Shown: in pieces, positions 12,537 through 32,877 of the stretch | Layout: every line of letters begins with the position of its first letter | Position numbering within the stretch: position 1 is the first letter of the stretch | NCBI GenBank assembly: GCA_007117625.1 | Contig: SKGE01000020.1 | Location: forward strand, 1 to 34,256 | Length of the DNA: 34,256 nucleotides | Reading direction: 5' to 3' | From: Candidatus Izemoplasma sp. | GTDB taxonomy: Bacteria; Bacillota_I; Bacilli_A; Izemoplasmatales; Izemoplasmataceae | Notes under the pieces: model-generated | Seen by the model: the letters and a program-made list of their open reading frames with translations, nothing else | Database searches by the model: none | What the model was told of the DNA's origin: nothing | Position numbers and translations under genes: made by a program

Positions 12537-12575
12537 TATTAATATAACATGTATTCACAATATTGGAGGCCTACA

Positions 12576-15297: not shown

Positions 15298-16663
15298 CAA
15301 GCTTTTGCCCCCTACGTTTTTTAATTAAATCATTGTAAACGAAAACTTTTTGGTACTCTTTTTCCCAAAATGCTGGATTTTGCATCGCATCAAGATAGGA
15401 TTTCTCATAATCAAATTTAAGCCAATCCGCTTCTTTTTGCTTAAATAAATAATTTTTATCTTTTAAGCTTCTTACATCTTTTATATGATTTGTATCAATA
15501 TCAATAAATATGTCTTTAAACCACCGTCTTAGAACGAAGTCTTCGGTCTCTAAATAACGCTTCTCTAAATCTTCTAAAACACTGTCATATCGGTCAAAAC
15601 CATCTGTTGCAACAGTGACAACATTATCATGTGGCCCTAGTTTTAAATACTTCGCCATTTTAATTGCGCCTAAAATATTACCAATTCCTGAAACGCCAAA
15701 ACAGTCTCTCAAATACTCAAACTGTTTTTTTGACAAAGCAAGCTCTTGGAATATTTTTTCGCCGTCGCGAAAAATCTTAAGTCCCCGCACCGCATCATCA
15801 TCTTTTACTAAGGCAATAAAATCTGTCGTAAGAATATTGTGAATTAAGGTACACATTTTATCGCCGATGCCTTCAATGCGATGTTGTCCACGACCACCAT
15901 CCATCAAAGTCGAGCATTCATACGGCTCTAGTGCAACGACTTTACTTTCTGGAAAAACTGTTTTTATATGATCTCCAGCCGCTAAAGTCCCTGCGCTACC
16001 TGGCGCTGAGGCAAAACATGCAATCCGTTCATTACCAACACCCTTTACCGCTTCTACGGCACTATGGCCTGTAACATGGCGATGAAAGCGATAGTTTGGA
16101 AATAGCTCAAACTGTGCGAGTGCATGATAGTTATCATTTTTCTTTAGCTCAAAGGTGCGCTCCAAAGTTAATATAACATCACTTTCTGTACCAGGGGTTA
16201 AATCAAGTTTAGCACCGTATTGTTGAATTCTTTGGTAGCGTTCTTTACTCATATTATCAGGCATAATGACAATTGAATCAAACTTCATTAAGTTACATAT
16301 GTATGAAACTCCAATACCAAAGTTTCCTGTTGAAGGCCCTAACATCGTATGATGTCCTGGAATGATTTTACCATCGACACAGCCTTCGATTAATGTTGCA
16401 TACGCAGGTCCAACTTTATGAGAGCCTGAGGGAAAATCTTTTCCTAATAAAACAACAATATTTGCTTCTACGCCTGTCAATGATTTTGGTAAAACAACTT
16501 TATTGATTTCTCCATTTTGTTTGCGCCACGTTATATTAAAAAGATTAAACGGGTCAAACTCATCTTTTAATGCTACATGAGCTTTTTGTTTTAGGTGCTC
16601 ATCTAAGATGTTTGGATTTAACATCTCATCATAGGTTGGACCCATTGGTATTTTAACTGTCAT
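15290..16663 (-). CDS. Fold-type II PLP enzyme, cysteine-synthase-like, in the YgeX position
   Basis: A 457-residue tryptophan-synthase-beta superfamily enzyme. The PLP lysine is Lys83 in [12 protein letters not shown]. The phosphate-binding glycine loop is probably [14 protein letters not shown], with [13 protein letters not shown] binding the substrate carboxylate. The motif order resembles cysteine synthase/cystathionine synthase, but there is about 100 residues of extra C-terminal sequence without a known domain. In E. coli-type clusters this place is held by YgeX (2,3-diaminopropionate ammonia-lyase). This protein lacks the YgeX signatures I know, for example NAFKMLGGAYA and TDGNHGRGVAWA. 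It may carry out the same or a related beta-elimination step. It overlaps both neighbours by about 8-11 nt. The superfamily is certain; the reaction is not. Confidence 0.8.
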
Positions 16664-17903
16664 TCATCTCATCCTTTATCTCAAGATAGTTTTCTAAGGC
16701 TTTTAAATCAGCTTTTACAACATCCTTGTTTGGTACCGATTTTAAAGCATTATCGATATCCTTTAACCCATTTCCTGTGTTAATGAATACAATTGACTCA
16801 TGATGGTTTATAAGGTTCTTTTGTACTGCATCTTTTAATCCCGCATAACCTGCAGCAGACGCAGGTTCAGCAAAAATTCCTTCATAGTTACCTAATGTTT
16901 TCATCGCTTTAAGGATTGCTTCATCAGAAACTTTCACCATCGTACCTTTTGACTTTTTAACAGCTTCTAGAGCTTTAATTGGGTTTCTTGGAATGCCAAC
17001 AGCAATACTGTCAGCAAGTGTGTTTTCATCTGCTTCTTTAATGTCATGGTTCGTGTGAAACGATTGATATATGGGTGCACACCCTTCTGATTGTACGCCG
17101 AGTAATTTAGGTATATTATTGATCAAACCAAGTTTATAAAAATCGTAAAAACCTTTATAAAGACCTGCAATTGTACATCCATCACCCACTGAAACAACTA
17201 CCCAATCAGGAGCTTCAAAGTCTAGCTGTTCTATTATCTCATAGGCAACCGTCTTCTTACCCTCGACCATATGTGGATTCACCGCAGCATTGCGATTGTA
17301 CCAATGGTACTTATCAATGGCTTGTTTTGAAAGGTTATAGGCAGCTTTATAATCTCCATCCACACGGACAAGTTGTGCACCATACATTAGCAGTTGAGCT
17401 GTTTTTCCAAGTGGAGCTCGTTTTGGTACAAAAATAACGGTTTTCAAGCCTAACTTAGCTGCATTTCCAGCGAGTGAGGTTGCGGCATTGCCAGTTGACG
17501 CACAAGCAATTGTATCTTTTCCTAACTGATAAGCTTTTACGACTGCGACAAATGAAGCTCGATCTTTTAATGAACCTGTTGGTTGCATCCCCTCATCTTT
17601 GATGTGTAAGCTTTTTACCGCTAGCTGTTTTGTTAAGTTATTCGCAAACATTAAAGGTGTCCAACCGACCGACAGGGTATTTAATATCTCATCAGCTTTA
17701 ATACTTATCAAGTCCTTATATCTCCATATATTGAAAGTTTTGTGTTCAGTAAAGAATGACTTTGTTATTGTTTTCTTCAAATATTTGTAGTCATACACAA
17801 CATCTAATATTCCTTTGTCTTTACACTTAGGACAAGTATTAGACTGATTGAGATCGACTTTTTGATTACATGATACGCACAAACCATATTTTATATGCTT
17901 CAT
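16653..17903 (-). CDS. Threonine-synthase-like PLP enzyme with N-terminal zinc ribbon
   Basis: A fold-type II PLP enzyme of 416 residues. A zinc ribbon is formed by C9-x2-C12 and C24-x2-C27. The PLP lysine is Lys113 in PTGSLKDRAS. Further blocks are ACASTGNAATSLAGNAAKLGLK, VSVGDGCTIAGLYKGF (phosphate-binding glycine loop region) and EPASAAGYAGL. By itself the sequence would be annotated threonine synthase, but the setting argues for a catabolic ammonia-lyase or beta-elimination role on a purine-derived amino acid. Its ATG overlaps the ade stop codon (ATGA), and its 3' end overlaps the next PLP gene. The alternative, a true threonine synthase carried in the operon, cannot be excluded; no hom or thrB is present. 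Confidence 0.78.
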   Translation of the reverse strand: MKHIKYGLCVSCNQKVDLNQSNTCPKCKDKGILDVVYDYKYLKKTITKSFFTEHKTFNIWRYKDLISIKADEILNTLSVGWTPLMFANNLTKQLAVKSLHIKDEGMQPTGSLKDRASFVAVVKAYQLGKDTIACASTGNAATSLAGNAAKLGLKTVIFVPKRAPLGKTAQLLMYGAQLVRVDGDYKAAYNLSKQAIDKYHWYNRNAAVNPHMVEGKKTVAYEIIEQLDFEAPDWVVVSVGDGCTIAGLYKGFYDFYKLGLINNIPKLLGVQSEGCAPIYQSFHTNHDIKEADENTLADSIAVGIPRNPIKALEAVKKSKGTMVKVSDEAILKAMKTLGNYEGIFAEPASAAGYAGLKDAVQKNLINHHESIVFINTGNGLKDIDNALKSVPNKDVVKADLKALENYLEIKDEMNDS

Positions 17904-19624
17904 GAGGCTTCAGCCTCTATCGGAATATGTTTAAAGGTTTCGACATCAAACAAACCACAATCAGTAAGCTTAAGTGCAGGAATAACTGGGAGTGATAAAA
18001 AGGCTAGTGAGATAAACGGATCATCAATGGCATCATTTAATCCCATTTGATTGGCTTTTTGTGTCATTGAGAGTAGTTTTGAAGAAACTGTTTTGACATC
18101 ACTCGTTGTCATGATACCAGCAATTTCTAGCTGCAAAGCCTCAACAACTTGATCATGTTCAACCAAAACAATGCCTCCTTGATACTTAACAACTGCATCT
18201 AATGCAACTTCCATCGAACGATCATTGTCTCCAATGATGATAATATTGTGTGAATCATGAGCAATAGTCATTGCAATCGCACCATTCTTAAGACCATAGC
18301 CCTCGACTAAACCTAAGCCATAATTACCCGTTTTTTTATGACGTTCAATCACAGCTAACTTCATTAAATTATCATCAGAGGTTTGTTTATAGTACCCATT
18401 TTCAACCGTCACATTTAGGACTTTTTTCTCAGTAGTGATATTATTTTTAACCAATCCAATAACATTTACCTTATCGCTTTTTAAAGGCAGTCTAAAATCA
18501 ATTTTCTCACGATCAATATGCACGGTATCAATCACATATTTGTCTTTAACTTGTTTACTTTTAAACGTGGTTACTTGATTTTTTGCAACACATTTTCCAT
18601 CTTTATAAACAAGTCTTGGTTGAATATCTTCTAGGGTTTCAAAAACGATAAAATCGGCGCGGTACCCAATGCCAATCGCTCCTAGTTTTTTTAAGCGATA
18701 GCATTCCGCTGCGTTTATGGTTGCCATCCGAATCGCTTGAACCGGATCAACACCTTCGGCAATCGCTAGATTAACATTAAAGTTAATATGACCTTCTTTT
18801 TCGATATCTTCTGGATGTTTGTCATCTGTGCAAAAAAGCAAGCGACGATAGTTTTCTTTAGTAACGCCTTTTAGAAGTGTTTTTACGTTACGTGTTGCTG
18901 AGCCTTCTCGTAAATGGACATACATCCCACGCTTTAATCTTTCTAACATACTTTCTACTTTCGTACATTCGTGATCGGTTTCAACGCCTGCAGCGATGTA
19001 AGCGTTGAGATCATGTCCCAAAATATCTGGCGCATGTCCATCAATTGGATAGCGTTGCATGGCGTTAAGTTTTTCGTGGATGTTTTTCTCACCAGAAATA
19101 ACTGCAGGATAATCCATCACTTCACCAAGACCTAAAACATTAGAATGCTTGATCAGTCTTTTGATGTCCTTTGTAGTAATCGTTGCACCAGCATTTTCAA
19201 AAGCTGTGGCCGGTACACAACTGGGAATCATAAAAAACACGTTTAACGGAATATCTTGACTCGCTTTAATCATATACTCAATCCCCTTCACTCCACTTAC
19301 GTTAGCAATTTCATGAGGATCAGCAATGACTGTGGTGGTTCCTTTTGGTACAACGACCTCAGCAAACTGTGGCGGTGTCATCATCGAAGACTCAATATGT
19401 ACATGCCCATCAATAAATCCAGGTGCAACATAGTCTCCATTCAAATCAATGACTTGTTTGGCTGAATAGTCTCCAAAACCAACAAAAATACCATCATGCA
19501 CCGCAAGATTTATCGTTTCAATTTCTCCTGTAAAAACATTTATAAGGGATGCATTTTTAAGTAACAAATCAACAGTTTTATCCCCGCGTGCATATGGCAT
19601 AAGTGATTGTTTTTTCATAGACAT
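17900..19624 (-). CDS. ade: Adenine deaminase
   Basis: Converts adenine to hypoxanthine and ammonia, feeding the hydroxylases of the operon. It belongs to the amidohydrolase-type Ade family: metal motif GFIDGHVHIESSMM, then TTVIADPHEIANVSG, FFMIPSCVPAT, LGLGEVMDYPAVI, DGHAPDILGHDLNAYIAAG and FCTDDKHPEDI, with the family's C-terminal beta domain (AIMTIAHDSHNIIIIGDND). The length of about 574 residues is normal. Possible starts are GTG (19628-19630), ATG (19622-19624) and ATG (19616-19618); I use the ATG at 19622-19624, but the ribosome site (GAAAGTG) is modest. It lies 11 nt after the second FAD subunit gene. Confidence 0.95.
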   Translation of the reverse strand: MSMKKQSLMPYARGDKTVDLLLKNASLINVFTGEIETINLAVHDGIFVGFGDYSAKQVIDLNGDYVAPGFIDGHVHIESSMMTPPQFAEVVVPKGTTTVIADPHEIANVSGVKGIEYMIKASQDIPLNVFFMIPSCVPATAFENAGATITTKDIKRLIKHSNVLGLGEVMDYPAVISGEKNIHEKLNAMQRYPIDGHAPDILGHDLNAYIAAGVETDHECTKVESMLERLKRGMYVHLREGSATRNVKTLLKGVTKENYRRLLFCTDDKHPEDIEKEGHINFNVNLAIAEGVDPVQAIRMATINAAECYRLKKLGAIGIGYRADFIVFETLEDIQPRLVYKDGKCVAKNQVTTFKSKQVKDKYVIDTVHIDREKIDFRLPLKSDKVNVIGLVKNNITTEKKVLNVTVENGYYKQTSDDNLMKLAVIERHKKTGNYGLGLVEGYGLKNGAIAMTIAHDSHNIIIIGDNDRSMEVALDAVVKYQGGIVLVEHDQVVEALQLEIAGIMTTSDVKTVSSKLLSMTQKANQMGLNDAIDDPFISLAFLSLPVIPALKLTDCGLFDVETFKHIPIEAEAS

Positions 19625-19635
19625 GCCCACTTTCT

Positions 19636-20475
19636 TTATAGTGTGTTTAAAAATGCTTTAATTAAATTATTCGCAGTATATTTCCGATAATCTTTGTTAG
19701 AACGCTGATCATCAATCGGTTGAATGGAAGTGCTGTAAGCCTCTAATATAGCATTGACATTTTGTTTCACCTCATCGGGCGTTTTTTCACACAATCCCTT
19801 TTCAATATCCTGTCGCCGAATTAATCTTGCGGCAACAGCATTGATTGTCATGCGTATATCTTTGATAACATTGTTTTCAACGGATGCACAGCCAACAAAC
19901 GCAACCTTACTAATGGCATCCGCTCTTCTACCACCGACTTTCACAAAACAGGTTTGTGTGAAGCTGGATTTAGGAATGATGATTTCAGTGATTATTTCAT
20001 TTTGCTTTAACGCTGTTTTTCTCGGACCTAATATAAGCTCTGAAACCGTCGATAAACGCGTTTCTTTTTGACTTTTAATCTCTACTTTAGCATCGAGTGC
20101 ATAAAGCGCTAACAAACTATCCGCAGCGGGTGAGGCATTACCGATATTTCCGCTTAAAGTTGAAACTTTTCGGATTGCGGGGGATGCCATTTCATAGATG
20201 ACCTTACGCAATATTTCAGGCGTTAATGGGTGGTGCAACAACGTTTCTAAATCGGTCATACTACCGATTTTAATAAACGCGTTTTCTTCTTTGACATACT
20301 TCAACGCCTCAAGGTTAAAGCAAAAGAGCAGCGGGGCATCAAACTTCGGTGGAAGTTCACTCCAAGCCCGGTTTTGCACCATAAGATCCGTGCCCCCAGC
20401 GATAATCTTATAAGTTGTTTCATTTAAATGCTCTAGTGCTTCTTCTAAAGTCACAGGTATACGATGTCTTACCAT
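19636..20475 (-). CDS. Molybdenum hydroxylase B, FAD-binding subunit
   Basis: The FAD (CoxM/XdhB-type) subunit of the second xanthine-dehydrogenase-like enzyme, taking electrons from the FeS subunit to FAD and on to NAD or another acceptor. The two FAD-binding motifs are well kept: IIAGGTDLMVQ at about 22-32 and TLSGNIGNASPAADSLLALYAL at about 103-124. The C-terminal domain (KVGGRRADAISKVAFVG) is normal. It has 279 residues. It overlaps the end of the FeS subunit gene by 7 nt. It is the last of the Mo-FeS-FAD trio, the opposite order to the first trio in the same operon. Confidence 0.92.
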   Translation of the reverse strand: MVRHRIPVTLEEALEHLNETTYKIIAGGTDLMVQNRAWSELPPKFDAPLLFCFNLEALKYVKEENAFIKIGSMTDLETLLHHPLTPEILRKVIYEMASPAIRKVSTLSGNIGNASPAADSLLALYALDAKVEIKSQKETRLSTVSELILGPRKTALKQNEIITEIIIPKSSFTQTCFVKVGGRRADAISKVAFVGCASVENNVIKDIRMTINAVAARLIRRQDIEKGLCEKTPDEVKQNVNAILEAYSTSIQPIDDQRSNKDYRKYTANNLIKAFLNTL

Positions 20476-20942
20476 AATCCTTTCCCCATTTCTTTAGCAC
20501 GCAAGACCGCTTTAACGATCATATTGTATCCAGTGCATCTACAAAGATTACCAGAAAGACCAACGCGAATCTCTTCATCACTTGGATTGGGATTACGGTT
20601 TAATAAGCTCTCAACAGCAATAATCATCCCAGGAATACAAATACCGCATTGAACCGCACCCTCTTTAATAAATGCTTCTTCGATGACTGCATAGCGTTTT
20701 GTTTTAGAAAACCCTTCAATCGTCATAACCTCTTGATGGTGCACATTAGCAAGTGGAAGGATGCAACTGTTTACAATATGACCATTAATCAAAACAGCAC
20801 AAGCTCCACATTCACCTTCGCCACAGCCTTCTTTTGGTCCTGTATGTTTTAAATCATTACGAATCACATCTAAAAAGCGTCGACTTGGATCTGTATGAAG
20901 TTCTATGGGTTTTCCATTAAATGTAAAAGTTATTTTAGTCAT
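20469..20942 (-). CDS. Molybdenum hydroxylase B, [2Fe-2S] subunit
   Basis: The small iron-sulfur subunit that carries electrons from the Mo site to the FAD subunit. It has a plant-type ferredoxin cluster, GCGEGECGACAVL with a fourth Cys in NSCILPL, and the C-terminal helical cluster domain with QCGICIPG and GNLCRCTGYNMIV. All eight cysteine ligands are present. 157 residues, normal for CoxS/XdhC-type small subunits. The ATG lies inside the end of the Mo subunit gene (8-nt overlap). Confidence 0.95.
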   Translation of the reverse strand: MTKITFTFNGKPIELHTDPSRRFLDVIRNDLKHTGPKEGCGEGECGACAVLINGHIVNSCILPLANVHHQEVMTIEGFSKTKRYAVIEEAFIKEGAVQCGICIPGMIIAVESLLNRNPNPSDEEIRVGLSGNLCRCTGYNMIVKAVLRAKEMGKGLW

Positions 20943-23025
20943 TATTCATCAACTCCATTAGGTATTCAGGGGTTGCTGGAATTTTAGAAACTCTCTTATT
21001 GATAGCCATTTCGATCGCAATCGCAACCGCTGGAGCCCCACCGACGAGTGTTAGTTCACCCGCACCTTTGGCACCATATGGACCGTAGGCAAACGGATTA
21101 TCAAATAGAACAGTTTCTGTTTTTGCCATATCAACTGCAGTTGGGATAACATAGTCTGTCATATTTTTTTGTAATAGTTTTCCATTGCGATGATTCATTA
21201 CTTCTAAATAGCCATAAGCAACACCTTGTGCAGTCCCACCATCAGCTTGTCCTATCACGATGTTATCATCTAATGATTTTCCAACATCATATACACTCCA
21301 AATATGTTCTACACGAACTTCTAGACTTGCAGGATCAACTGATACTTCTACTACGTTGACACCCCAGGAATACGCTGGGTAAGCATCGCCATTAAAAGTT
21401 GCTTGGTCCCATTCCATATAGTCAGGCTGTTTATATGATTTATGAACTATTTGCGGTTTACCGCTTTGCCAGTTTTCATTAATTTCTTGAGCGGCTCTTG
21501 CGACTAAACCACCTACAACCATTGCCGTCCTTGATGCAACGGTTGGCCCAGAATCTGGGACAATATCAGTATCAGGGTTTGCAAAATGAATGGCTTCTAA
21601 TGGAAGTTCTAAAACCTCAGCCGCTACTTTCATTAAAGTTGTTTTTGCTCCTTGACCCATATCCACAGCAGCAATTTCTAAATAGACATGGTCGGCTTCA
21701 TCTTTACGGAGTTTAACTTTAGCCTTAATATGATCCGCTTCACCGCTTCCTGTAAAACCACAGCCGTGTAAAAACCAACTCATCCCGATACCTTTCATTT
21801 TTTCACTAGATTCATATAGCGCTTTCTTTTTGTGATAACCAGAAATTTGACAAGCTTTTTTAATCATCTCTGGCATTAATATTGGGTCTCTAAAGGTACC
21901 GCTTGTAGTGGTTTTGTCACCTTGTTTTGCAAGGTGTCTCAAGCGAAAATCATGGACATCTTCATTCAAGTCTTTAGCAAGATGATTGATAAACATTTCG
22001 ACTGCAAAAATCATTTGTGGCGCACCAAAGCCTCGAAAAGCTCCATTTGGGACAGTATTTGTGATATACACATCACCATCAACTTGTAAATGGTTGATGG
22101 TATAAGCACTTGTTGCGGCTATCATAGCACGTGATAAGACAACACTAGATAGACCTAAAAACGCCCCACCATCGATACCAACATGACTTTTTATGGCGGT
22201 TATATTATTTTCTTCATCAATCGCAGCCTCCATGGTGATTTTTGAAGGATGACGCTTTGTAGTGACTTCCATATCTTCTTCACGTTCATAAATTAGTTTT
22301 ATCGGCTTTTTTACTTTCTTTAGGGCGACTGCAAGTTGGCATCCGATTAGCGAAGGAAATTCTTCTTTACCACCAAAAGCACCACCAACTGTGGCTTGTA
22401 TAATTCTTACGTCTTCAGGCTTGCATGAAAGCGTATCTATAACAGCGTTTTTCACATAGTAAGGTGCTTGGATTGAACCAATCAGTGTTACTTTCTCATC
22501 TTCAAGCGTTCCTATGAAACCCTGTGGTTCTATATAAGCTTGTTCTTGATAACCAGTTTCATATGTATACTTAATCGTCTTTTTAGCTTCTTGAAAAGCA
22601 GTTTGAGGGTCGCCTTTCGTAAAGTGGTAGTCTACTTTACTTTGCACCATATCAAAAATAGGTGTTTCTTCTTGATAGGTAATTTTAATCTTATCAAAAA
22701 CAGCCTGAACCATTTCTTTAGAAGGACCAACCACCAACATAATCGGTTCTCCATAATGACTAATATTTTTCTCCGCAAAAACAGGCCAGTCCTCATAAAT
22801 CATCTTGACAACATTTTTACCTGGAATATCCTGATAATCTACAATCGTAACACCTTCTGGCAAAGGCGGCAGCTCAATCGACTGAATAACGCCTTTGGCG
22901 ATGGTAGACCGCACAGTTTTAGCGTAGTGAAGCCCTTCAACATGGTAATCACTAACATATTTCATCTTTCCAGATATTTTATCTTTTGCTTCAACTTTCG
23001 GCACCGATTTATTAATTGTACTCAA
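20935..23025 (-). CDS. Molybdenum hydroxylase B, Mo-binding subunit (xanthine-dehydrogenase type)
   Basis: The catalytic molybdopterin subunit, expected to hydroxylate a purine such as xanthine or hypoxanthine. Motifs: TVGGAFGGKEEFPS, NGAFRGFGAPQM, AVDMGQGAKTTLM, SGPTVASRTAMVVGG, and GPYGAKGAGELTLVGG carrying the catalytic Glu (about residue 657). The Glu after GGK (about 221) and the Arg in FRGFG match bovine xanthine dehydrogenase Glu802 and Arg880, which bind the purine, so this one looks like a genuine purine hydroxylase. I place the start at TTG (23023-23025): AGGAG lies 8 nt upstream, whereas the in-frame GTG at 23032-23034 overlaps that site. The product is about 696 residues, short but complete. 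Confidence 0.92.
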   Translation of the reverse strand: MSTINKSVPKVEAKDKISGKMKYVSDYHVEGLHYAKTVRSTIAKGVIQSIELPPLPEGVTIVDYQDIPGKNVVKMIYEDWPVFAEKNISHYGEPIMLVVGPSKEMVQAVFDKIKITYQEETPIFDMVQSKVDYHFTKGDPQTAFQEAKKTIKYTYETGYQEQAYIEPQGFIGTLEDEKVTLIGSIQAPYYVKNAVIDTLSCKPEDVRIIQATVGGAFGGKEEFPSLIGCQLAVALKKVKKPIKLIYEREEDMEVTTKRHPSKITMEAAIDEENNITAIKSHVGIDGGAFLGLSSVVLSRAMIAATSAYTINHLQVDGDVYITNTVPNGAFRGFGAPQMIFAVEMFINHLAKDLNEDVHDFRLRHLAKQGDKTTTSGTFRDPILMPEMIKKACQISGYHKKKALYESSEKMKGIGMSWFLHGCGFTGSGEADHIKAKVKLRKDEADHVYLEIAAVDMGQGAKTTLMKVAAEVLELPLEAIHFANPDTDIVPDSGPTVASRTAMVVGGLVARAAQEINENWQSGKPQIVHKSYKQPDYMEWDQATFNGDAYPAYSWGVNVVEVSVDPASLEVRVEHIWSVYDVGKSLDDNIVIGQADGGTAQGVAYGYLEVMNHRNGKLLQKNMTDYVIPTAVDMAKTETVLFDNPFAYGPYGAKGAGELTLVGGAPAVAIAIEMAINKRVSKIPATPEYLMELMNND

Positions 23026-23036
23026 AATACTCACTC

Positions 23037-24116
23037 CTAGGGTTTCATTTCAATCGCATGTGTTGGACATTGTTCAACACATAGGCCACATTGGAAACAT
23101 TTTTCTGTATTAAAAGTGATATTTTCTTCAAAGGTGATTGCGAAATATGGACAGACTTTTTCACAGAGCATACACTCGATACATTTTTCTTTGATAAGGT
23201 TTGGTGTATTCGCACTATATTTAACATTATTTTTAAGAGATGTCTTAATCACCGATTCAATTGAATCAAAACCGTATTTATCTAAAGCGGCTGGCAAATC
23301 ATTTATTATTTTTTCGTATAAATGCTTTCCTTTAATAAGTGCTGCTGAAAGCATTTGAACACCGCTCGCTCCTGCTAGTAAAAATTCAATGACATCATCT
23401 GCACTAGCAATACCCCCGACACCAATCACGGTTAAATCTGGTTCAGCTTGTTTGATTTTATAGACAACCGCTAACGCTAAGTTTTTAATCACTGGGCCGC
23501 TCGTCCACACAAAGCCTTCTTCATTTCCATATAAAATTTTCCGTGTTTTGATATCTATCTTCATGGTTGGTCCTAAGGAGTTAATCGCGACAATCCCGTT
23601 TGCTCCTGCAGATTTGATGATGTTTGCAAAACCTTCAGGGTTAGGAATATGTGGACTAATTTTCATGTACACTGGCTTTTTTGTGTACTTCCTAATCGTT
23701 TTAACCGTGTCTTCAATAACGGATAAATCGGTCCCTACATAATGCGTTGAGACTTCAAAAGCATCCGCAAAGTCATTAAACATCGGAATTAGTATTTCCA
23801 TATCTTCTTTTGAGTATCCAACACTAACAATGAGCGGACGATCTTTATGCTTCATGTATGCCGGTAAAAACGTATCGCGCCATCGCGCCATCGAATGTTC
23901 ACTCCATAATTCACTATTCATAATAGCGTTTTTATCTCCATAAATACATGGTTTTGGAATGTTAGGATCACTCGTTGAAATCGTTTTGGTTACAATCGCT
24001 CCGCAACCTGCATCATGTAAAAACTTAAGTTTTTCATCGTCGCCATTAAGGGGTCCTGCTGCAGGCATTAAAGGATTATTTAACACTAAACCATCAAAGC
24101 TCGTTTTTAATCTCAT
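23037..24116 (-). CDS. PreA/dihydroorotate-dehydrogenase-like flavoprotein with two 4Fe-4S clusters
   Basis: An FMN TIM-barrel protein (about 1-300) fused to an 8Fe ferredoxin tail, like the C-terminal half of dihydropyrimidine dehydrogenase (PreA). The flavin-phosphate region is VIGVGGIASADDVIEFLLAGASGVQML. The cluster ligands are C312-x2-C-x2-C-x3-C322 and C340-x2-C-x2-C-x3-C350. It probably reduces or oxidises a purine or pyrimidine-like ring intermediate. The active-site loop reads EVSTHYVG where DPD/DHOD enzymes have N-x-S-C-P: the catalytic Cys is replaced by Thr124. No PreA-partner (GltD-like) gene is present, so the electron donor is unknown. It overlaps ssnA by 4 nt (ATGA). Confidence 0.85.
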   Translation of the reverse strand: MRLKTSFDGLVLNNPLMPAAGPLNGDDEKLKFLHDAGCGAIVTKTISTSDPNIPKPCIYGDKNAIMNSELWSEHSMARWRDTFLPAYMKHKDRPLIVSVGYSKEDMEILIPMFNDFADAFEVSTHYVGTDLSVIEDTVKTIRKYTKKPVYMKISPHIPNPEGFANIIKSAGANGIVAINSLGPTMKIDIKTRKILYGNEEGFVWTSGPVIKNLALAVVYKIKQAEPDLTVIGVGGIASADDVIEFLLAGASGVQMLSAALIKGKHLYEKIINDLPAALDKYGFDSIESVIKTSLKNNVKYSANTPNLIKEKCIECMLCEKVCPYFAITFEENITFNTEKCFQCGLCVEQCPTHAIEMKP

Positions 24117-25426
24117 AGCTCTTCCTCATTTCTTATCCGTTTCCATAATTTTGTTGATACATGTGAAGCTTCTTTATACTTATTCATTAAATGTTTAGAA
24201 ACGGTATAGTTTGATACTTTTTCAACGCCATTAATGTATACTGATTTTGGTTTAAAACTATGCATAAGACCATACACCAAATGTCCAAATGCATTTGACG
24301 CATCAATCGGAGTCGGAGCTGCGTAAGGGACTAACATAAAGTCCGCTTGATAACCTGATTGAAGTTTTCCTAATTTTGTATTAAGTCGTTTCGATACATA
24401 AGCATACGTATTTTTGATGATGCTTAATAAATCTTCCAAACCAAAAGCGGTTGGCGATCTTTCTTTTAAATGCATGGCATAGAGGATTGTTAGGTATTCC
24501 GTGGCAATGGTTGTGGATAAGCCATCGTTTCCAAGAATGACAGGAACACCATGTTTTTTTAGCTTTAGGTAATTAGGTAATCCAACAGCATTATTCATGT
24601 TCGATGTAACGTTTAAAGCAACGACGCATTTATGTTTTTTTAGCAAAGCGATTTCTTCATCGTTCATAAACAGCCCATGCGTAATAATACTGTCTTCTGT
24701 AAGTAAGTTATGCCTTGCTAAACGATCGATGATACGCTGATTATATTTTTTTAAGGCATCTGCTTCATCAAGTTCACTTTCAGCAACATGGATGTGAATC
24801 GGTTCTTGATTAAGGACCTTTGAAACTTTTTTCAATGTTGCTTCTGATAAACTCATCGAGGCATGTAATCCAAAATGGCCGCTTACCATCGAGGTTTTAT
24901 TCAAAGGTGATTTTAAGAAATTAACATTTTCTTGTATGGCTTCATCGACATTGAATCGGTCGCTCGTTTCGAAACAAAAAAGTCCACGAAGTCCAACCGT
25001 ATCAATGACGCTGTTTTTTAACATCGTTAAAGATCCTGATATGTCTTTTCCGCTGGCGTGGTGGTCAATAATCGTCGTAACACCATTTTTTAAAGCATCG
25101 ATTGCATGGACAATACCACTATAGTAGGTTGCTTGATTATCTAAATGTTTGTCGAGCTTCCACCACAATTGATCTAATATATCCTGAAAGTTTTTCGGAT
25201 TGAAATCGGGTGACCAACCGCGTGCAAATGTTGAATATATATGTGTGTGACCGACCACAAAAGATGGTAGTAACCATTCACCCGAACCATCTTTTATTTG
25301 ATATTCATCATCGACAAAATCTTCCATCTTGCCCACTGAAATAATCTTATCATCATAGATGATATAGCCGTTTTCAATATATTGCTCATAATCGTATAAT
25401 CGAACATTTATGATGGCTTTCTTCAC
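24113..25426 (-). CDS. ssnA: SsnA-type aminohydrolase (chlorohydrolase/guanine deaminase superfamily)
   Basis: A metal-dependent amidohydrolase-superfamily enzyme. Motifs: PSFVVGHTHIYSTFARG (metal H-x-H), QLWWKLDKHLD, which is characteristic of SsnA, HFGLHASMSLSE, IHVAESELDE (metal His), ITHGLFMND and LGNDGLSTT (metal Asp). SsnA is found next to ygeX/ygeY/xdh in E. coli and in purine-degrading anaerobes; deamination or ring hydrolysis of a purine derivative is likely. The start is GTG at 25424-25426, 7 nt after AAGGAG, which is formed by the last codons of the upstream gene; an ATG at 25471 would be upstream of that site. About 437 residues. Confidence 0.88.
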   Translation of the reverse strand: MKKAIINVRLYDYEQYIENGYIIYDDKIISVGKMEDFVDDEYQIKDGSGEWLLPSFVVGHTHIYSTFARGWSPDFNPKNFQDILDQLWWKLDKHLDNQATYYSGIVHAIDALKNGVTTIIDHHASGKDISGSLTMLKNSVIDTVGLRGLFCFETSDRFNVDEAIQENVNFLKSPLNKTSMVSGHFGLHASMSLSEATLKKVSKVLNQEPIHIHVAESELDEADALKKYNQRIIDRLARHNLLTEDSIITHGLFMNDEEIALLKKHKCVVALNVTSNMNNAVGLPNYLKLKKHGVPVILGNDGLSTTIATEYLTILYAMHLKERSPTAFGLEDLLSIIKNTYAYVSKRLNTKLGKLQSGYQADFMLVPYAAPTPIDASNAFGHLVYGLMHSFKPKSVYINGVEKVSNYTVSKHLMNKYKEASHVSTKLWKRIRNEEEL

Positions 25427-25430
25427 TGTA

Positions 25431-26723
25431 TCACTCCTTAATAAACTTCCCCTGATGTTCCAAATACTCACGGTTTTTAATCACATAGTTTCCACGAACC
25501 ATAGTATGGATCGTATAGCCAGATGTTTCAACCCCAATATATGGACTATAATCCGTTCCGCCATGATGCTGCTTAATGATGCTTTTAGATGGCTTAAATA
25601 TCATTATATCGGCATCATGACCTACTTTAATTTGACCTTTGTTCTTAATACCAAAGATATCTGCGACGTGTTTCGTCATTTTGTTTATTACACTATCCCC
25701 CAATAAATTTCTCATAATTCCAAAACTAAACTCAATTCCACCAATACCAAGCGGTATTTCAGAAAGTTTGTTTTTGTTTTTATCACTTGTATTAAAAGCG
25801 CAATGATCTGTCGCAAAGGTATGAAACGCGTGATGGCGCTTAAATAAAAGTGCTTGTTCTTCTTTAGAACGCATTGGTGGTGCCAACGTATAGAGCATGC
25901 CGTTATCTTGATTTAAAACTTTATCGGTAAAGGTAAAGTACTGAGGACAGCTTTCTAAAAAGAGTTGAAGACCCAATAAACGTTTCCCATTTTCTAAAAT
26001 CGCTTCAACGGTGTTTCCAGAACTTACATGTACCATATAAAGCTTTCCATCGCTATGCTTTAAGTACTCAATCATTTTTAAGGCTTCTACTGTTTCTGCA
26101 ACGCTAGGACGACTTTTAAGCAAGTCTTTATAGGTAAAAGCATCATCGTGATGAATCAATGTATCATCTTCTAAATGACCGAGTAATAAAATGTTATGTT
26201 GCGCGCTTAAATCAAGCAATTTTTTAATCGCTTCATCAGGCGTTTTTCGGTTTGACTCTGAGTAGGTTGTGAAAAACTTTATGCTCTTTAGTCCCAATAG
26301 TTTAACCGTTTTTACAAATGTTTCCAGATCTTCTTTTGGTGCTTTTATGCACGCATGGAAGGTATAGTCAATCGCTGTTTGCCTTGCTTCGTTCAAACGA
26401 ACACTTAGTGCGTTTTGTAACAACTCATACGAATCAACTGGTTCTAAAAAGTCAATGATTGTCGTCACACCACCATAAGCGGCTGCTTTACTTCCTGTTT
26501 TAAAGGTATCTTTAGAGCGGATAAATCCTAAATCCAAGTCAAAATGCACATGCGGATCTATTAGACCAGGGAGTACTTCTAAACCTTTTGCATCTAACAC
26601 ATCTAATGCTTCATACAAGGTATCGCTAATTAAAGCGATTTTTTCACCTTGTATGTAAATATTGGTTTTTGCAAAGCCATTCTCAAGATAAACATTTCCA
26701 TTTATGATTGCCTTGTCATACAT
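25431..26723 (-). CDS. hyuA: Cyclic amidohydrolase, dihydropyrimidinase/hydantoinase (HyuA) type
   Basis: Opens a cyclic amide or ureide ring by hydrolysis. The binuclear metal site is complete: DPHVHF, the carboxylated Lys in SIKFFTTYSE, His in HLEDD, His in HVSSGNTVEA and Asp in FATDHCAF. These match the dihydropyrimidinase/hydantoinase/allantoinase group, and E. coli HyuA occupies the same type of cluster. About 430 residues from the ATG at 26721-26723, which has AAGAAGG 7 nt upstream; the in-frame ATG at 26747 has no such site. It lies 13 nt after the THEP1-like gene. Substrate inferred: a purine-derived ring such as a ureide or hydroxypyrimidine-type intermediate. Confidence 0.88.
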   Translation of the reverse strand: MYDKAIINGNVYLENGFAKTNIYIQGEKIALISDTLYEALDVLDAKGLEVLPGLIDPHVHFDLDLGFIRSKDTFKTGSKAAAYGGVTTIIDFLEPVDSYELLQNALSVRLNEARQTAIDYTFHACIKAPKEDLETFVKTVKLLGLKSIKFFTTYSESNRKTPDEAIKKLLDLSAQHNILLLGHLEDDTLIHHDDAFTYKDLLKSRPSVAETVEALKMIEYLKHSDGKLYMVHVSSGNTVEAILENGKRLLGLQLFLESCPQYFTFTDKVLNQDNGMLYTLAPPMRSKEEQALLFKRHHAFHTFATDHCAFNTSDKNKNKLSEIPLGIGGIEFSFGIMRNLLGDSVINKMTKHVADIFGIKNKGQIKVGHDADIMIFKPSKSIIKQHHGGTDYSPYIGVETSGYTIHTMVRGNYVIKNREYLEHQGKFIKE

Positions 26724-26736
26724 TCTAATACCTTCT

Positions 26737-27213
26737 TTATGAAGCATATACTATTTCGTTTATTTCAATATTGTATTTAGTTTTTATGGCTTCTACAAGA
26801 TCTTCCCTAATACTTAAAATCAACGGAATTTTCTTTTTAATCAAATAGCTCAATGTTTTATGCAATCCTTTATCTTCAAGCTCTAGTAATCCAATCTCAT
26901 CTAAATAAATAGGAGATATGCCTTTATGAACGAGCTTTATAATGCTTTGGTCTATCCACCTTAATGTCGTCTCGTTGAATAGATAAGGTCCTATCTGACA
27001 GGCAATCTCAAAATCGTTATCAAAAAAAGTTGTCCGCTTAATCAAAACATTTTTCTCTTGAGTAGATAGCTGCATCGCATCATAGCTATGAACTGTATCA
27101 TGAACCATATTTTTGATTGAGATAAACCCGTCACCGATTTTATTTTTTTTATAAATTTCTAACATTTTTGTGGTCTTATTACTGTTAATCTTCCCAGTAA
27201 CGATAATGACCAT
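26737..27213 (-). CDS. THEP1-like P-loop NTPase with altered Walker A
   Basis: A 158-residue protein resembling the NTPase_1/THEP1 nucleoside-triphosphatase family. The N-terminal P-loop TGKINSNKTT keeps Gly7, Lys13 and Thr14, but the glycine before Lys is Asn12. The Walker B-like block is PIYLDEIGLLELE, where THEP1 proteins have IDEIGPMEL. GFISIKN also fits the family. THEP1 proteins hydrolyse NTPs in vitro but their function is unclear. In this operon, between XdhC and HyuA, it might assist cofactor insertion or nucleotide metabolism. The start (ATG with GGGAG 7 nt upstream) overlaps the xdhC end by 29 nt. A MobB-like role in Mo cofactor chemistry is another possibility. Confidence 0.7.
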   Translation of the reverse strand: MVIIVTGKINSNKTTKMLEIYKKNKIGDGFISIKNMVHDTVHSYDAMQLSTQEKNVLIKRTTFFDNDFEIACQIGPYLFNETTLRWIDQSIIKLVHKGISPIYLDEIGLLELEDKGLHKTLSYLIKKKIPLILSIREDLVEAIKTKYNIEINEIVYAS

Positions 27214-28024
27214 GGTCTGACTCCCTCATATGTGTGACTTCGTCTTTATTATGGTGGATAGCCAACATCTCTGAAGCGATAGAAATAGCTATTTCCTCAG
27301 GACTTCCACCACCTAAAGATAATCCGATTGGAGAATAAAAACGTCTCAAATTAATCTTATTTCCAAACCTTTCATACGCTTTTTCTAAATAATCTTTAAG
27401 TTTTTGAGGAGAACAGAGCATTCCCATATACTTCGGCTTGAAGTTTTTCTCAATAACCTTATTAACCACATGATAATCGTATTCATGACTCGGAGTGCAA
27501 ATAATAACGAATGCATTTTCTGGTAACCCTTCAGCATCGATAAACTCTACGAAAGGCTGATGCACTAAACGATCTGCCCCTTTAAATTGCTTGATGACAT
27601 GCTCCCGCTCATCGATGACAGTAAGATGAAAGTTAAGTGGCTTTATAGTATTCACAAGGGCTTGGCCAACGTGACCCGCTCCAAAGATGAAAACACTTGC
27701 CTCTGCACCTATATATTCATAATAAAGCGTTACCACACCACCGCAAACCATCGGTAATGTTTTCGCATTTGGAACCACCTTACCATCATTTAACACGTAG
27801 CGCTCATGTAAATGTTGGCGTGTTTTTAAAAGTTCTTTACATTTTTCTCGAGCATAAAACTCTAAGTTCCCACCGCCAACAGTCCCAAAAGCCTCATCGT
27901 GTTCTGTCACAAGCATCTTTTTACCAACCGCAACAGGTCCTTCTCCTTGTTTTGCTACGGCGGTCACTAAAACAGCACCTATATTTCGTTTTTTACAGGC
28001 TACAATTCGATCGAAAATATCCAT
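27185..28024 (-). CDS. xdhC: XdhC family maturation factor for molybdenum hydroxylases
   Basis: XdhC/CoxI-type accessory protein that binds the Mo cofactor, allows its sulfuration and delivers it to xanthine-dehydrogenase-type enzymes. The N-terminal domain has VLVTAVAKQGEGPVAVGKKM, FGTVGGGNLEF and a Cys in PMVCGGVV, where the conserved Cys-Gly-Gly is thought to take part in sulfur handling. The C-terminal Rossmann domain starts at VFIFGAGHVGQAL and ends with IGLSLGGGSPEEIAISIASEMLA, as usual. 279 residues. It lies 27 nt after the membrane-protein gene with a GGAGTGA ribosome site, and serves one or both hydroxylases of the operon. Confidence 0.93.
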   Translation of the reverse strand: MDIFDRIVACKKRNIGAVLVTAVAKQGEGPVAVGKKMLVTEHDEAFGTVGGGNLEFYAREKCKELLKTRQHLHERYVLNDGKVVPNAKTLPMVCGGVVTLYYEYIGAEASVFIFGAGHVGQALVNTIKPLNFHLTVIDEREHVIKQFKGADRLVHQPFVEFIDAEGLPENAFVIICTPSHEYDYHVVNKVIEKNFKPKYMGMLCSPQKLKDYLEKAYERFGNKINLRRFYSPIGLSLGGGSPEEIAISIASEMLAIHHNKDEVTHMRESDHGHYRYWED

Positions 28025-28676: not shown

Positions 28677-30998
28677 TTAAATCTCCTTTGTATTTTTATA
28701 TTGCATTGCCATAACGATTTTTTCTGGTGTAATTGGTAAATCTTTTATTCTCACGCCTAAAGCATTGTATACTGCGTTTGCAAGTGCTGCAGGCGGTGTA
28801 TCTATTCCTATTTCTCCAACACTTTTTGCGCCGTAAGGACCTGAGGCTTCGTGACTTTTGGCGAACTCTGTTGTGAGTTTAGGAATATCTTTACTTGTAG
28901 GGATTTTATACTTGAGTAAATCATTTGTGATTAGCTGACCTTTTTCACTATATTTAACGACTTCAAAATGTGCCATGCCTAATCCTTGAACAATGCCACC
29001 TTCAACTTGTCCTTGTGCAAGTTTAGGATTAATAGTAACGCCACAGTCAACAACACTAACATAATCAACAATCTCAATTTCTCCAGTTTCTTTATCGATA
29101 TCAATCTCGACAAAGCCAGCCATAAATGGTGGAGGAGATTTGGTTCCATAGTAGCTACTTGTAGCTGTTAACTGCTTTTGATCTTCATTGTAGGTGATAC
29201 GGTTTGATAAGTCTTTCATCGAAAGCTTAGTGTCACTGTTTTTAACATGGATTATTTCGCCACCAAAGACAATTTGCTCAGGCTCAACATCTAAAATATT
29301 TGCTGCTTCTTTTACAATTAAATCTTTCATGTTCAAAGCGGCTCGATAGACTGCATTACCCGAAACGAATGTTGTACTTGAAGCATAAGCCCCGACATCA
29401 AATGGCGTTAAGTCAGTATCTGAGGAGTAGATAACTACCCGTTCAATATCAACATCTAATGTCTCAGCAGCAATTTGCGCTAAAATGGTGTCAGAACCTT
29501 GCCCAATATCAGTCGCTCCTACGGTCAAGTTGTAAAATCCATCATCGTTGAGTTTAATAGTTGCGGCCCCCATATCGATATAAGGTATACCACTACCTTG
29601 CATCGCCAGCGCCATACCAACTGACTTGACCTTGCCATTCCCTAAATCGACCCGAGGATATTTATCTTTCCAACCGATTAGTTCTAACCCGCGCTCTAAA
29701 CAGTAATCGAGTTTACATGTCTCCATGTTCATCGCAGTACCTTCTGTTCCTTCGCCCATAATTTCAAACACAGGTGACGTTTCTCCTTCTAAAATCATAT
29801 TTTTAAGACGGAATGTAATAGGGTCGATGTTGAGCTTTTGACAAAGAGTATCGACCGTAGATTCTAATGCAAAGTTTCCTTGAATCGCACCATAGCCTCG
29901 GTAAGCCCCCGCTGGTGTATGGTTGGTATAGACAACATGACCGTGGAATCGTGCCGCATCTACTTTGTTATAAAGTGGCAACACTTTTGATCCTGCAACC
30001 ATAAAAACGGTTAACGCGTGTTCTCCATAAGCACCTGTATTCGATAAGACATACCAGTCAATCGCTTTTAAGTTTCCTTCATTATCAGCCCCAAGTTTTA
30101 TTTTTAAAGTCATTGGATGTCTCGTATAGGAAGACTCAAATACTTCTTTTCGCGTATAGGTCAACTTAGCTGGTTTACCGGTTTTATAAGTAACCCATGC
30201 AACTAACAACTCACCATGTATGGCTTGTTTGCCGCCAAAACCACCACCAACACGAGGTTTAATTACACGGATTTTATGCATCGGAATATCTAAGGCTTGA
30301 GAAATAATACGTCTCACATGAAAAGGCGTTTGAGTTGAAGAATAAATAACTAAACGGTTCTGGATGTCTAAACGAGCATTGACTGAATGTGGTTCCATCA
30401 TCACATGCGCTTGCGCTTGTGTCGTGTAAGTTTCTTCAACGATAACATCTGAGGCTTCAAACGCTTTATCTAAATCACCAAAATCCATACCATATGCAGC
30501 TGCAATATTACGCTTTGGTTCAAAGCCAATCGGAAACATTTCATGAATTTCTTCTTCAGGATGGACAACCGAACTATGATCCATAGCTTGTTGATAATTT
30601 AAAACAGGTTCTAAAACTTCATATTCAACATCTATATGTTCCATTGCAGCTATCGCTGTCGCTTCATCGGCTGCTACTACCGCTAGCACTTCATCACCGA
30701 CATAACGAACGTATTCATCAAGCACAAACTTATCGTGTGGTGAAGGTTCTGGATACCCTTGACCCGCTCGTGTAAATGGCTTGCGCGGAAAATCTTGATG
30801 CGTTAGTACCATTTCAACACCCGGTAGTTTCAATGCTTTAGATTTATTAATACGTTTTATTTTTGCAAAAGCATGTGGACTTCTTAACACTTTTACGACT
30901 AAAGAGGAAGGATCTGCTAAATCATCGGTAAAAGCAGGACGTCCCAGCATAATTCCACGACCGTCTACAGAACGAATCTCCTTGTTTATCGTTTTCAT
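28677..30998 (-). CDS. Molybdenum hydroxylase A, Mo-binding subunit
   Basis: The catalytic molybdopterin subunit of the first hydroxylase, 773 residues. It has the full set of motifs: RVGGGFGGKQAIHGE, AGAYRGYGAIQGNF, GATDIGQGSDTILAQ, and GPYGAKSVGEIGIDTPPAAL with the catalytic Glu729. The position equal to bovine XDH Glu802 is Gln258 here (GGKQ), while the Arg of YRGYG is kept. This differs from the second Mo subunit in the operon and points to a different purine or another heterocycle as substrate. The ATG overlaps the FeS gene stop (ATGA). It is also about 77 residues longer than the second Mo subunit. Confidence 0.92.
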   Translation of the reverse strand: MKTINKEIRSVDGRGIMLGRPAFTDDLADPSSLVVKVLRSPHAFAKIKRINKSKALKLPGVEMVLTHQDFPRKPFTRAGQGYPEPSPHDKFVLDEYVRYVGDEVLAVVAADEATAIAAMEHIDVEYEVLEPVLNYQQAMDHSSVVHPEEEIHEMFPIGFEPKRNIAAAYGMDFGDLDKAFEASDVIVEETYTTQAQAHVMMEPHSVNARLDIQNRLVIYSSTQTPFHVRRIISQALDIPMHKIRVIKPRVGGGFGGKQAIHGELLVAWVTYKTGKPAKLTYTRKEVFESSYTRHPMTLKIKLGADNEGNLKAIDWYVLSNTGAYGEHALTVFMVAGSKVLPLYNKVDAARFHGHVVYTNHTPAGAYRGYGAIQGNFALESTVDTLCQKLNIDPITFRLKNMILEGETSPVFEIMGEGTEGTAMNMETCKLDYCLERGLELIGWKDKYPRVDLGNGKVKSVGMALAMQGSGIPYIDMGAATIKLNDDGFYNLTVGATDIGQGSDTILAQIAAETLDVDIERVVIYSSDTDLTPFDVGAYASSTTFVSGNAVYRAALNMKDLIVKEAANILDVEPEQIVFGGEIIHVKNSDTKLSMKDLSNRITYNEDQKQLTATSSYYGTKSPPPFMAGFVEIDIDKETGEIEIVDYVSVVDCGVTINPKLAQGQVEGGIVQGLGMAHFEVVKYSEKGQLITNDLLKYKIPTSKDIPKLTTEFAKSHEASGPYGAKSVGEIGIDTPPAALANAVYNALGVRIKDLPITPEKIVMAMQYKNTKEI

Positions 30999-31447
30999 GA
31001 TTTATCCTCCAAATACTTCTTAATCGCTTTATTTTGAGCAACATAGCCAGAACAACGACAAAGATTTCCGACCATGTAACTTAGAATCGATTCAGGATTA
31101 GGGTCTTTCAAGTGTTTTTTCATCGCAATAACCGTAAGTGCCGTAGCAGGATTGCAAAACCCACATTGATCGGCACCTTCTTGACCAAAGTATTCATAAA
31201 ACTTATTAACCTCGTCTTGGAGACCTTCAACTGTAGTAATATTAGCGCCTTCACATCTTGCTGTTAACATTGAGCATGATAAAATAGGTTTTCCATCTTT
31301 TAACACCGTACACACACCACATGTGGAAGCATCACAGCCTTTTTTAACACTTAAAATGTTGTGGTTTCTTAAGGTATCTAGTAAATACTCATTCGCATGG
31401 ACTGAAAAAATACGTTCTCTTCCATTTAATAACAGCTTAACTTTCAT
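30995..31447 (-). CDS. Molybdenum hydroxylase A, [2Fe-2S] subunit
   Basis: The small electron-transfer subunit of the first hydroxylase, 150 residues. The first cluster is bound by GCDASTCGVCTVL with a fourth Cys in LSCSML; the second by QCGFCNPATAL and GNLCRCSGYVAQ. All eight cysteines are present, although the usual Gly in GCxxGxCGxC is Ser here. It overlaps the FAD gene by 11 nt and the Mo gene by 4 nt. Confidence 0.93.
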   Translation of the reverse strand: MKVKLLLNGRERIFSVHANEYLLDTLRNHNILSVKKGCDASTCGVCTVLKDGKPILSCSMLTARCEGANITTVEGLQDEVNKFYEYFGQEGADQCGFCNPATALTVIAMKKHLKDPNPESILSYMVGNLCRCSGYVAQNKAIKKYLEDKS

Positions 31448-32237
31448 AGTTGCCTACCTCCTCTAAACCGCGGCGCACATATGTTTTTGCTAAAACGTGT
31501 CGATAGTCCGCAGTAGCGCTATGATTCGTCCCAAAAGAAATTTCTGCTTCCATCAATCGAACGGCTTCATTTATATTTTGTGTGTTAAGCGGTTTATTAC
31601 CTAAAAAAGCCATTGCCTTACGTGCAAAAACCGCACCTCCTGGTCGGGATCCCAGTATTATGCAGTAACTATCTTCTTTTTTTACAATCGTAATATTCAA
31701 AATTGAAAAATCTAAAGGTGTGTTAGATACTTTTTTAAAGTAACCAACACTTTTTTTTCTTGGAACAATCACTTCGATTAAAATATCTTTTACACTTCCT
31801 TTAGTCTCAAGGAATTTTTCCAATGTTATTTCACCTTTTCGATGAAAGACAAGCTTTGCATCAAGTGCCAGTAAAGGTGGAATAATATCAGAAAATCCGT
31901 AGCGTCCTACAACACTACCTCCAAGCGTTGCTAAGTTTCGTAAGCCAACACCCATCACATGGTTGATCGCTTTGGATAAGATTTCTGAACCAAGCGATTG
32001 AACTAAATCAGAATCTACTAAAGATTGCAAGGGTGTCATGCTACCTATTTTAACTAGTTCAGCTTCTGCTTTAATATAGTCTAGATTTAAAGCATCTAGT
32101 GTAATCGCCTTTTCAATTTTTCTAGGTAATCTTTTTAACCACACCCCACCGCCTAAAACAGTATGGCTCGCATGTTCATTGAGCAGTTCATAAGCTTCTT
32201 CAACACTCGATGCTTTAACAATCATTTGCGTTTTCAA
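31437..32237 (-). CDS. Molybdenum hydroxylase A, FAD-binding subunit
   Basis: A CoxM/XdhB-type FAD subunit of about 266 residues. The first FAD motif is TVLGGGVWLKRL (usually AGGTDLL-like), and the second is LATLGGSVVGRYGFSDIIPPLLAL. Both are more diverged than in the second FAD subunit, so FAD binding or the electron acceptor may differ. I place the start at TTG (32235-32237), 8 nt after AAGGAG; the in-frame GTG at 32244-32246 is fused to that ribosome site, and the ATG at 32225 is too distant. The gene overlaps mocA by 23 nt. Confidence 0.85.
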   Translation of the reverse strand: MKTQMIVKASSVEEAYELLNEHASHTVLGGGVWLKRLPRKIEKAITLDALNLDYIKAEAELVKIGSMTPLQSLVDSDLVQSLGSEILSKAINHVMGVGLRNLATLGGSVVGRYGFSDIIPPLLALDAKLVFHRKGEITLEKFLETKGSVKDILIEVIVPRKKSVGYFKKVSNTPLDFSILNITIVKKEDSYCIILGSRPGGAVFARKAMAFLGNKPLNTQNINEAVRLMEAEISFGTNHSATADYRHVLAKTYVRRGLEEVGNYES

Positions 32238-32805: not shown

Positions 32806-32877
32806 GATAGCCACCTCTTGTGAAAAACATTTGATGCTTCACTTTGGGGCCGAATCGTATTTAGGTATATTAAAGTT

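Follow-up and report, generated by a model that had tools for sequence, protein, structure and literature searches.

Within a purine operon of Candidatus Izemoplasma sp. lies a gene for a flavoprotein related to dihydroorotate dehydrogenase (DHOD) and dihydropyrimidine dehydrogenase (DPD) but devoid of their N-x-S-C-P loop, which raises the question of what such a protein reduces and what has taken the place of the loop. An earlier note on this DNA had read it as a PreA/DHOD-like flavoprotein in which Thr124 stands where the catalytic Cys is expected, suited to reducing an oxopurine in the role of YgfK or to a reverse, electron-releasing reaction. Analysis of the window, by which we mean the whole 34,256-nucleotide stretch, indicates with a probability of about 0.85 that the gene encodes UacX, the yanthine-ring reductase of the anaerobic reductive uric-acid pathway, and we infer that the product is best read as a yanthine reductase that depends on ferredoxin, in a bacterium of the Ca. 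Izemoplasma type.

In E. coli, XdhD reduces uric acid to 2,8-dioxopurine (yanthine), YgfK dearomatises yanthine and SsnA opens the ring, after which HyuA, YgeW, YgeY and YgeX act (Li et al. 2025; PMC12507026). UacX is a stand-alone flavoprotein that replaces YgfK in this pathway; together with SsnA, the C. difficile enzyme converts yanthine to ureidomethyl-hydantoin (UMH) with reduced methyl viologen as the donor, and ferredoxin has been proposed as the natural electron donor (PMC12507026). The architecture of UacX, in which a PF01180 barrel is joined to a C-terminal 2x[4Fe-4S] domain and any NAD(P)H/FAD domain is absent, is also that of the window protein, whose residues 3-278 form the DHOD barrel (Pfam, 119.8 bits, E 1.7e-34) and are followed by the ferredoxin motifs. 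Both CX2CX2CX3C motifs (C312/315/318/322 and C340/343/346/350) are complete and invariant in an alignment of 41 rows, and the barrel residues K44, N67, K152, N179, GP 207-208, G234-G235 and G249-A250, whose role in the FMN site is taken from DHOD and DPD, are present and invariant among homologues, so both 4Fe-4S motifs are intact and the FMN site appears to be so, as had been claimed. An AlphaFold2 model from the same alignment (pLDDT 85.7) found its best PDB matches in pig DPD and lactococcal DHODB.

None of the curated NCBIfam DHOD and PreA models scored the reductase over its cut-off (134.7 bits vs 335 for PRK08318, the PreA model; 167 vs 269 for PRK07259 and 162 vs 270 for TIGR01037, both DHOD models), and the protein has neither the N-x-[SG]-C-P loop of PreA and DPD nor the Cys or Ser base of DHOD. 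It also differs from YgfK, a fusion of ~1000 aa with a GltD-like module (TIGR03315), in being 359 aa long, and TIGR03315, against which E. coli YgfK scores 1778.7, is absent among the 25 best families listed for it. In a maximum-likelihood tree of the barrel, from which the loop columns were left out, a UacX clade that joins the window protein with the C. difficile enzyme stands apart from PreA and PyrD with a support of 94/92, marginally below the bootstrap threshold of 95, and the window clade is supported at 100/100. Relatives are found mostly in metagenome genomes of Izemoplasmatales, Acholeplasmatales-like and other Bacilli, with some in Clostridia, while searches of phage and plasmid records returned only ordinary DHOD and PreA proteins, apart from Cetobacterium.

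The genome that supplied the C. difficile sequence was identified by 16S, through ten exact matches to a 16S primer found in 23 papers on C. difficile, and its UacX loop reads AVELSTHYVG. Its cluster encodes DpaL, YgeY, UacY, SsnA, a permease, UacX, HyuA and Fe-S and Mo subunits, without YgfM, and this content matches the published one; two genes separate UacY from UacX in this locus, where the published accessions Q181U6 and Q181U4 leave room for one. Matched in this way by 16S and cluster rather than letter for letter by accession, the assayed C. difficile UacX very probably has the same loop.

The surroundings of the gene likewise are those of UacX, which is found next to ssnA in uricolytic clusters (XdhD, HyuA, YgeY) without ygfK. 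We found that the reductase gene overlaps the ssnA-like gene by 4 bp and is separated by a 2 bp gap from a molybdenum hydroxylase gene, within a minus-strand run (13103-34208) that encodes XdhA- and XdhD-type hydroxylases, XdhC, a MocA-like protein, HydA, the SsnA-like enzyme, adenine deaminase, YgeY and an OTC/YgeW-like carbamoyltransferase (Table 1). An SsnA homologue accompanies the reductase gene in all 75 relatives in which the neighbourhood is visible, at a distance of at most 300 bp in 74 of the 75. The XdhD-type enzyme is a candidate for the reductase that turns uric acid into yanthine; the region around E. coli Glu606 does not align with it. Together, these findings give good support to the earlier proposal of a flavoprotein that reduces an oxopurine in the role of YgfK, as the protein belongs to the family that replaces YgfK (PMC12507026).

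Table 1. Features of the window, in order of position
Feature	Position	Strand	Remarks
Cytidine/guanine-deaminase-like protein, probably a guanine deaminase by inferred specificity	12549..13061	+	PF00383
Carbamoyltransferase of the OTC/YgeW kind	13103..14086	-	TIGR00658 259 bits, TIGR03316 190 bits, both below cut-off
YgeY hydrolase	14083..15300	-	TIGR03526 692.2 bits, over cut-off
Cysteine-synthase-like PLP enzyme	15290..16663	-	synteny
Threonine-synthase-like PLP enzyme	16653..17903	-	synteny
Adenine deaminase	17900..19630	-	TIGR01178 611.8 bits, over cut-off
FAD (YgfM-like) subunit, XdhD-type hydroxylase	19636..20475	-	family by reading the sequence; synteny
2Fe-2S subunit, XdhD-type hydroxylase	20469..20942	-	family by reading the sequence; synteny
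XdhD-type molybdenum hydroxylase, large subunit	20935..23034	-	2 bp downstream of the reductase gene
UacX-type yanthine (2,8-dioxopurine) reductase (probable), FMN barrel + C-terminal 2x[4Fe-4S]	23037..24116	-	359 aa
C-terminal ferredoxin domain of the reductase	23040..23183	-	residues 312-359, two CX2CX2CX3C motifs
Active-site loop of the reductase, shortened stand-in for the N-x-S-C-P loop	23733..23759	-	F120-G128, FEVSTHYVG
SsnA-like amidohydrolase, proposed partner hydrolysing the reduced ring	24113..25471	-	synteny
HydA/HyuA-like dihydropyrimidinase/hydantoinase	25431..26747	-	TIGR02033 234 bits, below cut-off; synteny
NTPase_1 protein and XdhC/CoxI maturation factor	26737..28024	-	
XdhA-type molybdenum hydroxylase with Fe-S and FAD subunits, and MocA-like nucleotidyltransferase	28677..32814	-	

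The window protein and C. difficile UacX (Q181U4, PMC12507026) share a single FMN barrel with C-terminal 2x[4Fe-4S] and no FAD domain, SsnA, HyuA and XdhD as neighbours and the loop E-x-S-T-H-Y-V-G. Their clusters differ in that the one in the window includes an FAD subunit for XdhD, encodes a carbamoyltransferase of the YgeW kind in place of UacY, and lacks YgeX. The layout at 19636-23034 (minus strand) is a hybrid, in which the XdhD-type enzyme comes with an FAD subunit, as it does in E. coli, and the ring reductase stands alone as in C. difficile, and the carbamoyltransferase of this hybrid cluster is YgeW-like. We found no YgeX/DpaL in the window cluster or genome; its place in the E. coli and C. 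difficile clusters is occupied here by two PLP enzymes (15290-17903, minus strand) that are paired in nearly every complete Izemoplasmal cluster, and the last pathway step may differ here. Between the HydA and XdhC genes sits an NTPase_1 family protein (26737-27213, minus strand), and inside the purine operon lies a 207-aa membrane protein (28052-28675, minus strand) without any Pfam match, possibly a transport component.

Since the window protein and C. difficile UacX share only 37% identity over 359 columns, and the window SsnA, at 34% identity, falls below the NCBIfam cut-offs (373.6 bits vs 444 for PRK07203; 357 vs 455.5 for TIGR03314), there is room for a shift in the exact substrate. The protein might then be a family member that acts on another purine intermediate, such as xanthine, urate or hypoxanthine, and the position of the Izemoplasmal branch far from the assayed enzymes, with a long branch (1.8 changes per column) separating the window clade from that of C. 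difficile, together with the divergent SsnA and the missing YgeX, speaks for this. We nevertheless regard it as unlikely, since the loop has been kept along with two motifs, KPC[IM] and N-x-ELW[ST]E, and with the SsnA-UacX-XdhD gene order, and genes for the downstream steps (YgeY, carbamoyltransferase and hydantoinase-like) are present. On a separate note, the C. difficile genome carries a second cluster (L161:3287-10720) with a UacX paralogue whose loop reads IELVSYDYRD, two divergent SsnA homologues (25-30% identity), YgeY, HyuA, DpaL and two molybdenum hydroxylases; its substrate may be another N-heterocycle.

We then turn to the loop, which does read EVSTHYVG (F120-E121-V122-S123-T124-H125-Y126-V127-G128). 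Across 130 homologous loci, which include some repeat copies of single genomes, E121, S123, H125, Y126, V127 and G128 are invariant, while at position 124 Thr occurs in 122 loci, Cys in 7 and Ala in 1. The conservation of EVSxHYVG is more than chance, and the change, being common to these loci and to C. difficile UacX, is not peculiar to the window protein. Since C. difficile UacX has been shown to be active and has the same loop, the missing Cys appears to be a trait of the whole UacX family that is compatible with activity on an oxopurine. On the other hand, the PyrD encoded by the same genome retains EINISCPN, and with this separate, Cys-containing PyrD present, the reductase is not the housekeeping enzyme.

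Alignment with PreA, DPD and DHOD upheld the absence of N-x-S-C-P but did not support a simple exchange of Cys for Thr. MAFFT, HMMER and HHalign all pair Glu121 with the Glu that precedes N-x-S-C-P and not with the Asn, and only HMMER sets S-T on S-C. HHalign (probability 100%, E 8e-70) pairs Ser123 with Asn668, so that the Cys falls into a deletion, while the invariant Tyr126 would occupy the position of Cys671 if the strand were read ungapped. Counted from this Glu to the conserved Lys of strand 5, the stretch is 31 residues long in the window protein, compared to 40 in L. lactis DHODB, 42 in E. coli PreA and 43 in pig DPD, which makes the Cys loop 9-12 residues shorter than in DHOD and DPD. 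These alignments show a Cys loop that has been shortened and has lost its motif, and that is rebuilt rather than point-mutated; the statement that Thr124 replaces the Cys is unproven.

Whether residue 124 itself acts in catalysis can be judged from its variation. If Thr124 had replaced the catalytic Cys and served as the acid/base, possibly in the reverse direction, one could point to the HMMER alignment of S-T on S-C, to the dominance of Thr at this position and to YgfK, which likewise reads LST[ML]HGC at 27 residues from the conserved Lys, compared to 28 here. We consider this very unlikely, since Cetobacterium somerae and genome G824, both with full uric-acid clusters, have Ala at 124, the Cys is derived and HHalign leaves the catalytic Cys in a deletion; for the reverse, electron-releasing direction we found no evidence. 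The pattern of Thr, Cys and Ala at 124 is explained by 3 changes on the maximum-likelihood tree, where the Cys124 sequences are nested deep among Thr124 sequences, so that Cys124 arose late and is no relic. Cys124 as the ancestral catalytic residue was rejected, as its clade is nested within Thr sequences. Because Thr, Ala and derived Cys vary at this position, residue 124 is unlikely to be a general acid, and a reading of Thr124 as the replacement acid is not supported.

PreA, PydA, DPYD and the clostridial PydAc share with the window protein the FMN barrel, the ferredoxin domain and the N-x-E and K-[LIM]-[ST]-P motifs, but they keep the mobile N-x-S-C-P loop with its catalytic Cys and reduce uracil or thymine, and PreA and DPYD use NAD(P)H. 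Class 1B dihydroorotate dehydrogenase (PyrD) shares the barrel fold (TM-score 0.85 by target, 5ksw_A) but keeps the Cys loop and has no C-terminal ferredoxin domain. No PreT or GltD partner lies beside the reductase gene, in agreement with the earlier observation that no GltD-like partner adjoins it, and the genome's single Fer4_20 protein, encoded on another contig, is NfnB of an NfnAB pair. The electrons most likely come from ferredoxin, given that no NAD(P)H module is nearby and that the genome has genes for a 55-aa 2[4Fe-4S] ferredoxin, for NfnAB and for a HydABC-like hydrogenase (named by reading their sequences). PydAc provides a precedent for a ferredoxin-fed enzyme of the same architecture (PMC7332683).

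This likeness also raises the possibility that the protein is an ordinary ferredoxin-dependent, PydAc-like dihydropyrimidine dehydrogenase acting on uracil or thymine, with HydA as its dihydropyrimidinase. The architecture is the same as that of clostridial PydAc, without an FAD domain (PMC7332683), and a dihydropyrimidinase-like gene lies two genes upstream. Even so, we give this slightly less credence than a catalytic Thr124, since the N-x-S-C-P loop is absent while PreA and DPD depend on C671, the gene lies among those for purine enzymes (SsnA, two Mo hydroxylases, adenine deaminase and YgeY) and the protein groups with UacX, not PreA. That it is an inactive or non-catalytic paralogue without a catalytic residue is scarcely credible, since nothing beyond the missing Cys suggests it, while the barrel and both 4Fe-4S motifs are strongly conserved across many genomes, the operon is tight and C. 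difficile UacX is active with the same loop.

How a UacX-type yanthine reductase could work without the Cys may follow from its substrate. C6 of yanthine carries a hydrogen and is double-bonded to N1, so a proton taken up at N1 can balance a hydride delivered to C6. In DPD, the FMN hydride goes to uracil C6, and C671 on the mobile loop protonates C5 (PMC8097209, PMC3674756). In UacX, reduced ferredoxin would feed the two 4Fe-4S clusters and, through them, reduce FMN, whose N5 would give a hydride to C6 of 2,8-dioxopurine; the matching proton would go to ring N1, with no need for a Cys that protonates C5, or could come from the invariant Tyr126 or His125. We propose that, because a proton on N1 needs no carbon acid, the mobile Cys loop became dispensable and could be lost, being cut to the short E-[VIL]-S-x-H-Y-V-G turn while residue 124 drifts. 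The SsnA-like enzyme would hydrate C4, open the ring and so pull the reduction forward. Protonation of C5, the stereocentre, would be left to SsnA or to tautomerisation and not to UacX, and both UMH and 5-ureido-dihydrouracil would follow from the addition of water at C4 that we assign to SsnA. Altogether, we tentatively propose, at slightly less than even odds, that UacX, and probably the reductase domain of YgfK, form a branch of the DHOD/DPD superfamily without the mobile catalytic-Cys loop, in which the hydride goes to C6, the proton goes to nitrogen or comes from an invariant Tyr/His, and C5 with its stereocentre is left to SsnA.

The inclusion of YgfK draws on its N-terminal half, which in the E. 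coli protein is a domain homologous to the window reductase (HHalign 96.6%, E 5e-10). The two share PAAGP, KPCI, N-x-E-W-S, SVGY and S-T, and neither has N-x-S-C-P; YgfK differs in its fused GltD-like NAD(P)H module and in an insertion of ~60 residues before the loop. E. coli YgfK and seven further YgfK N-termini (two of which are copies of one gene) read [TA]LST[ML]HGC at a matching distance from the conserved Lys, a residue match made by eye. YgfK scores only 15.5 bits against the UacX profile, and profile comparison with full-length YgfK gave no meaningful match, which appeared with the N-terminal domain only; in that alignment the middle is out of register, and with the C-terminal part alone at 14% probability the register of the loop is not statistically fixed. 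In three loci (L178, L179 and L180) we also found stand-alone proteins of ~550-570 aa that match only the N-terminal half of YgfK and carry Fe-S motifs at the end, without the GltD-like module, which may represent a third architecture for the same reductase.

UacX and its function were already known, and the window protein is a divergent member of the family. In the literature that we examined, no mention was found of a Cys loop lost throughout the family, and this trait appears unreported. A "xanthine-degradation locus" of DNA-eating Ca. Izemoplasmatales was seen in 2021 (PMC8289736), and a cluster with the same kinds of genes was thiosulfate-induced in cultured Xianfuyuplasma coldseepsis (PMC8397711), in both cases without this function being assigned. 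Our findings suggest that both types of reductase in the pathway lack the Cys that defines the chemistry of the superfamily, and they point to Ser123, His125 and Tyr126 as residues able to test the site of ring protonation. That site bears on the stereochemistry, which has been noted as unsettled (PMC12990295). Altogether, the Izemoplasma locus finds its place in the reductive uric-acid pathway, which until now had been worked out in E. coli and clostridia and which is thereby widened to marine sediments.
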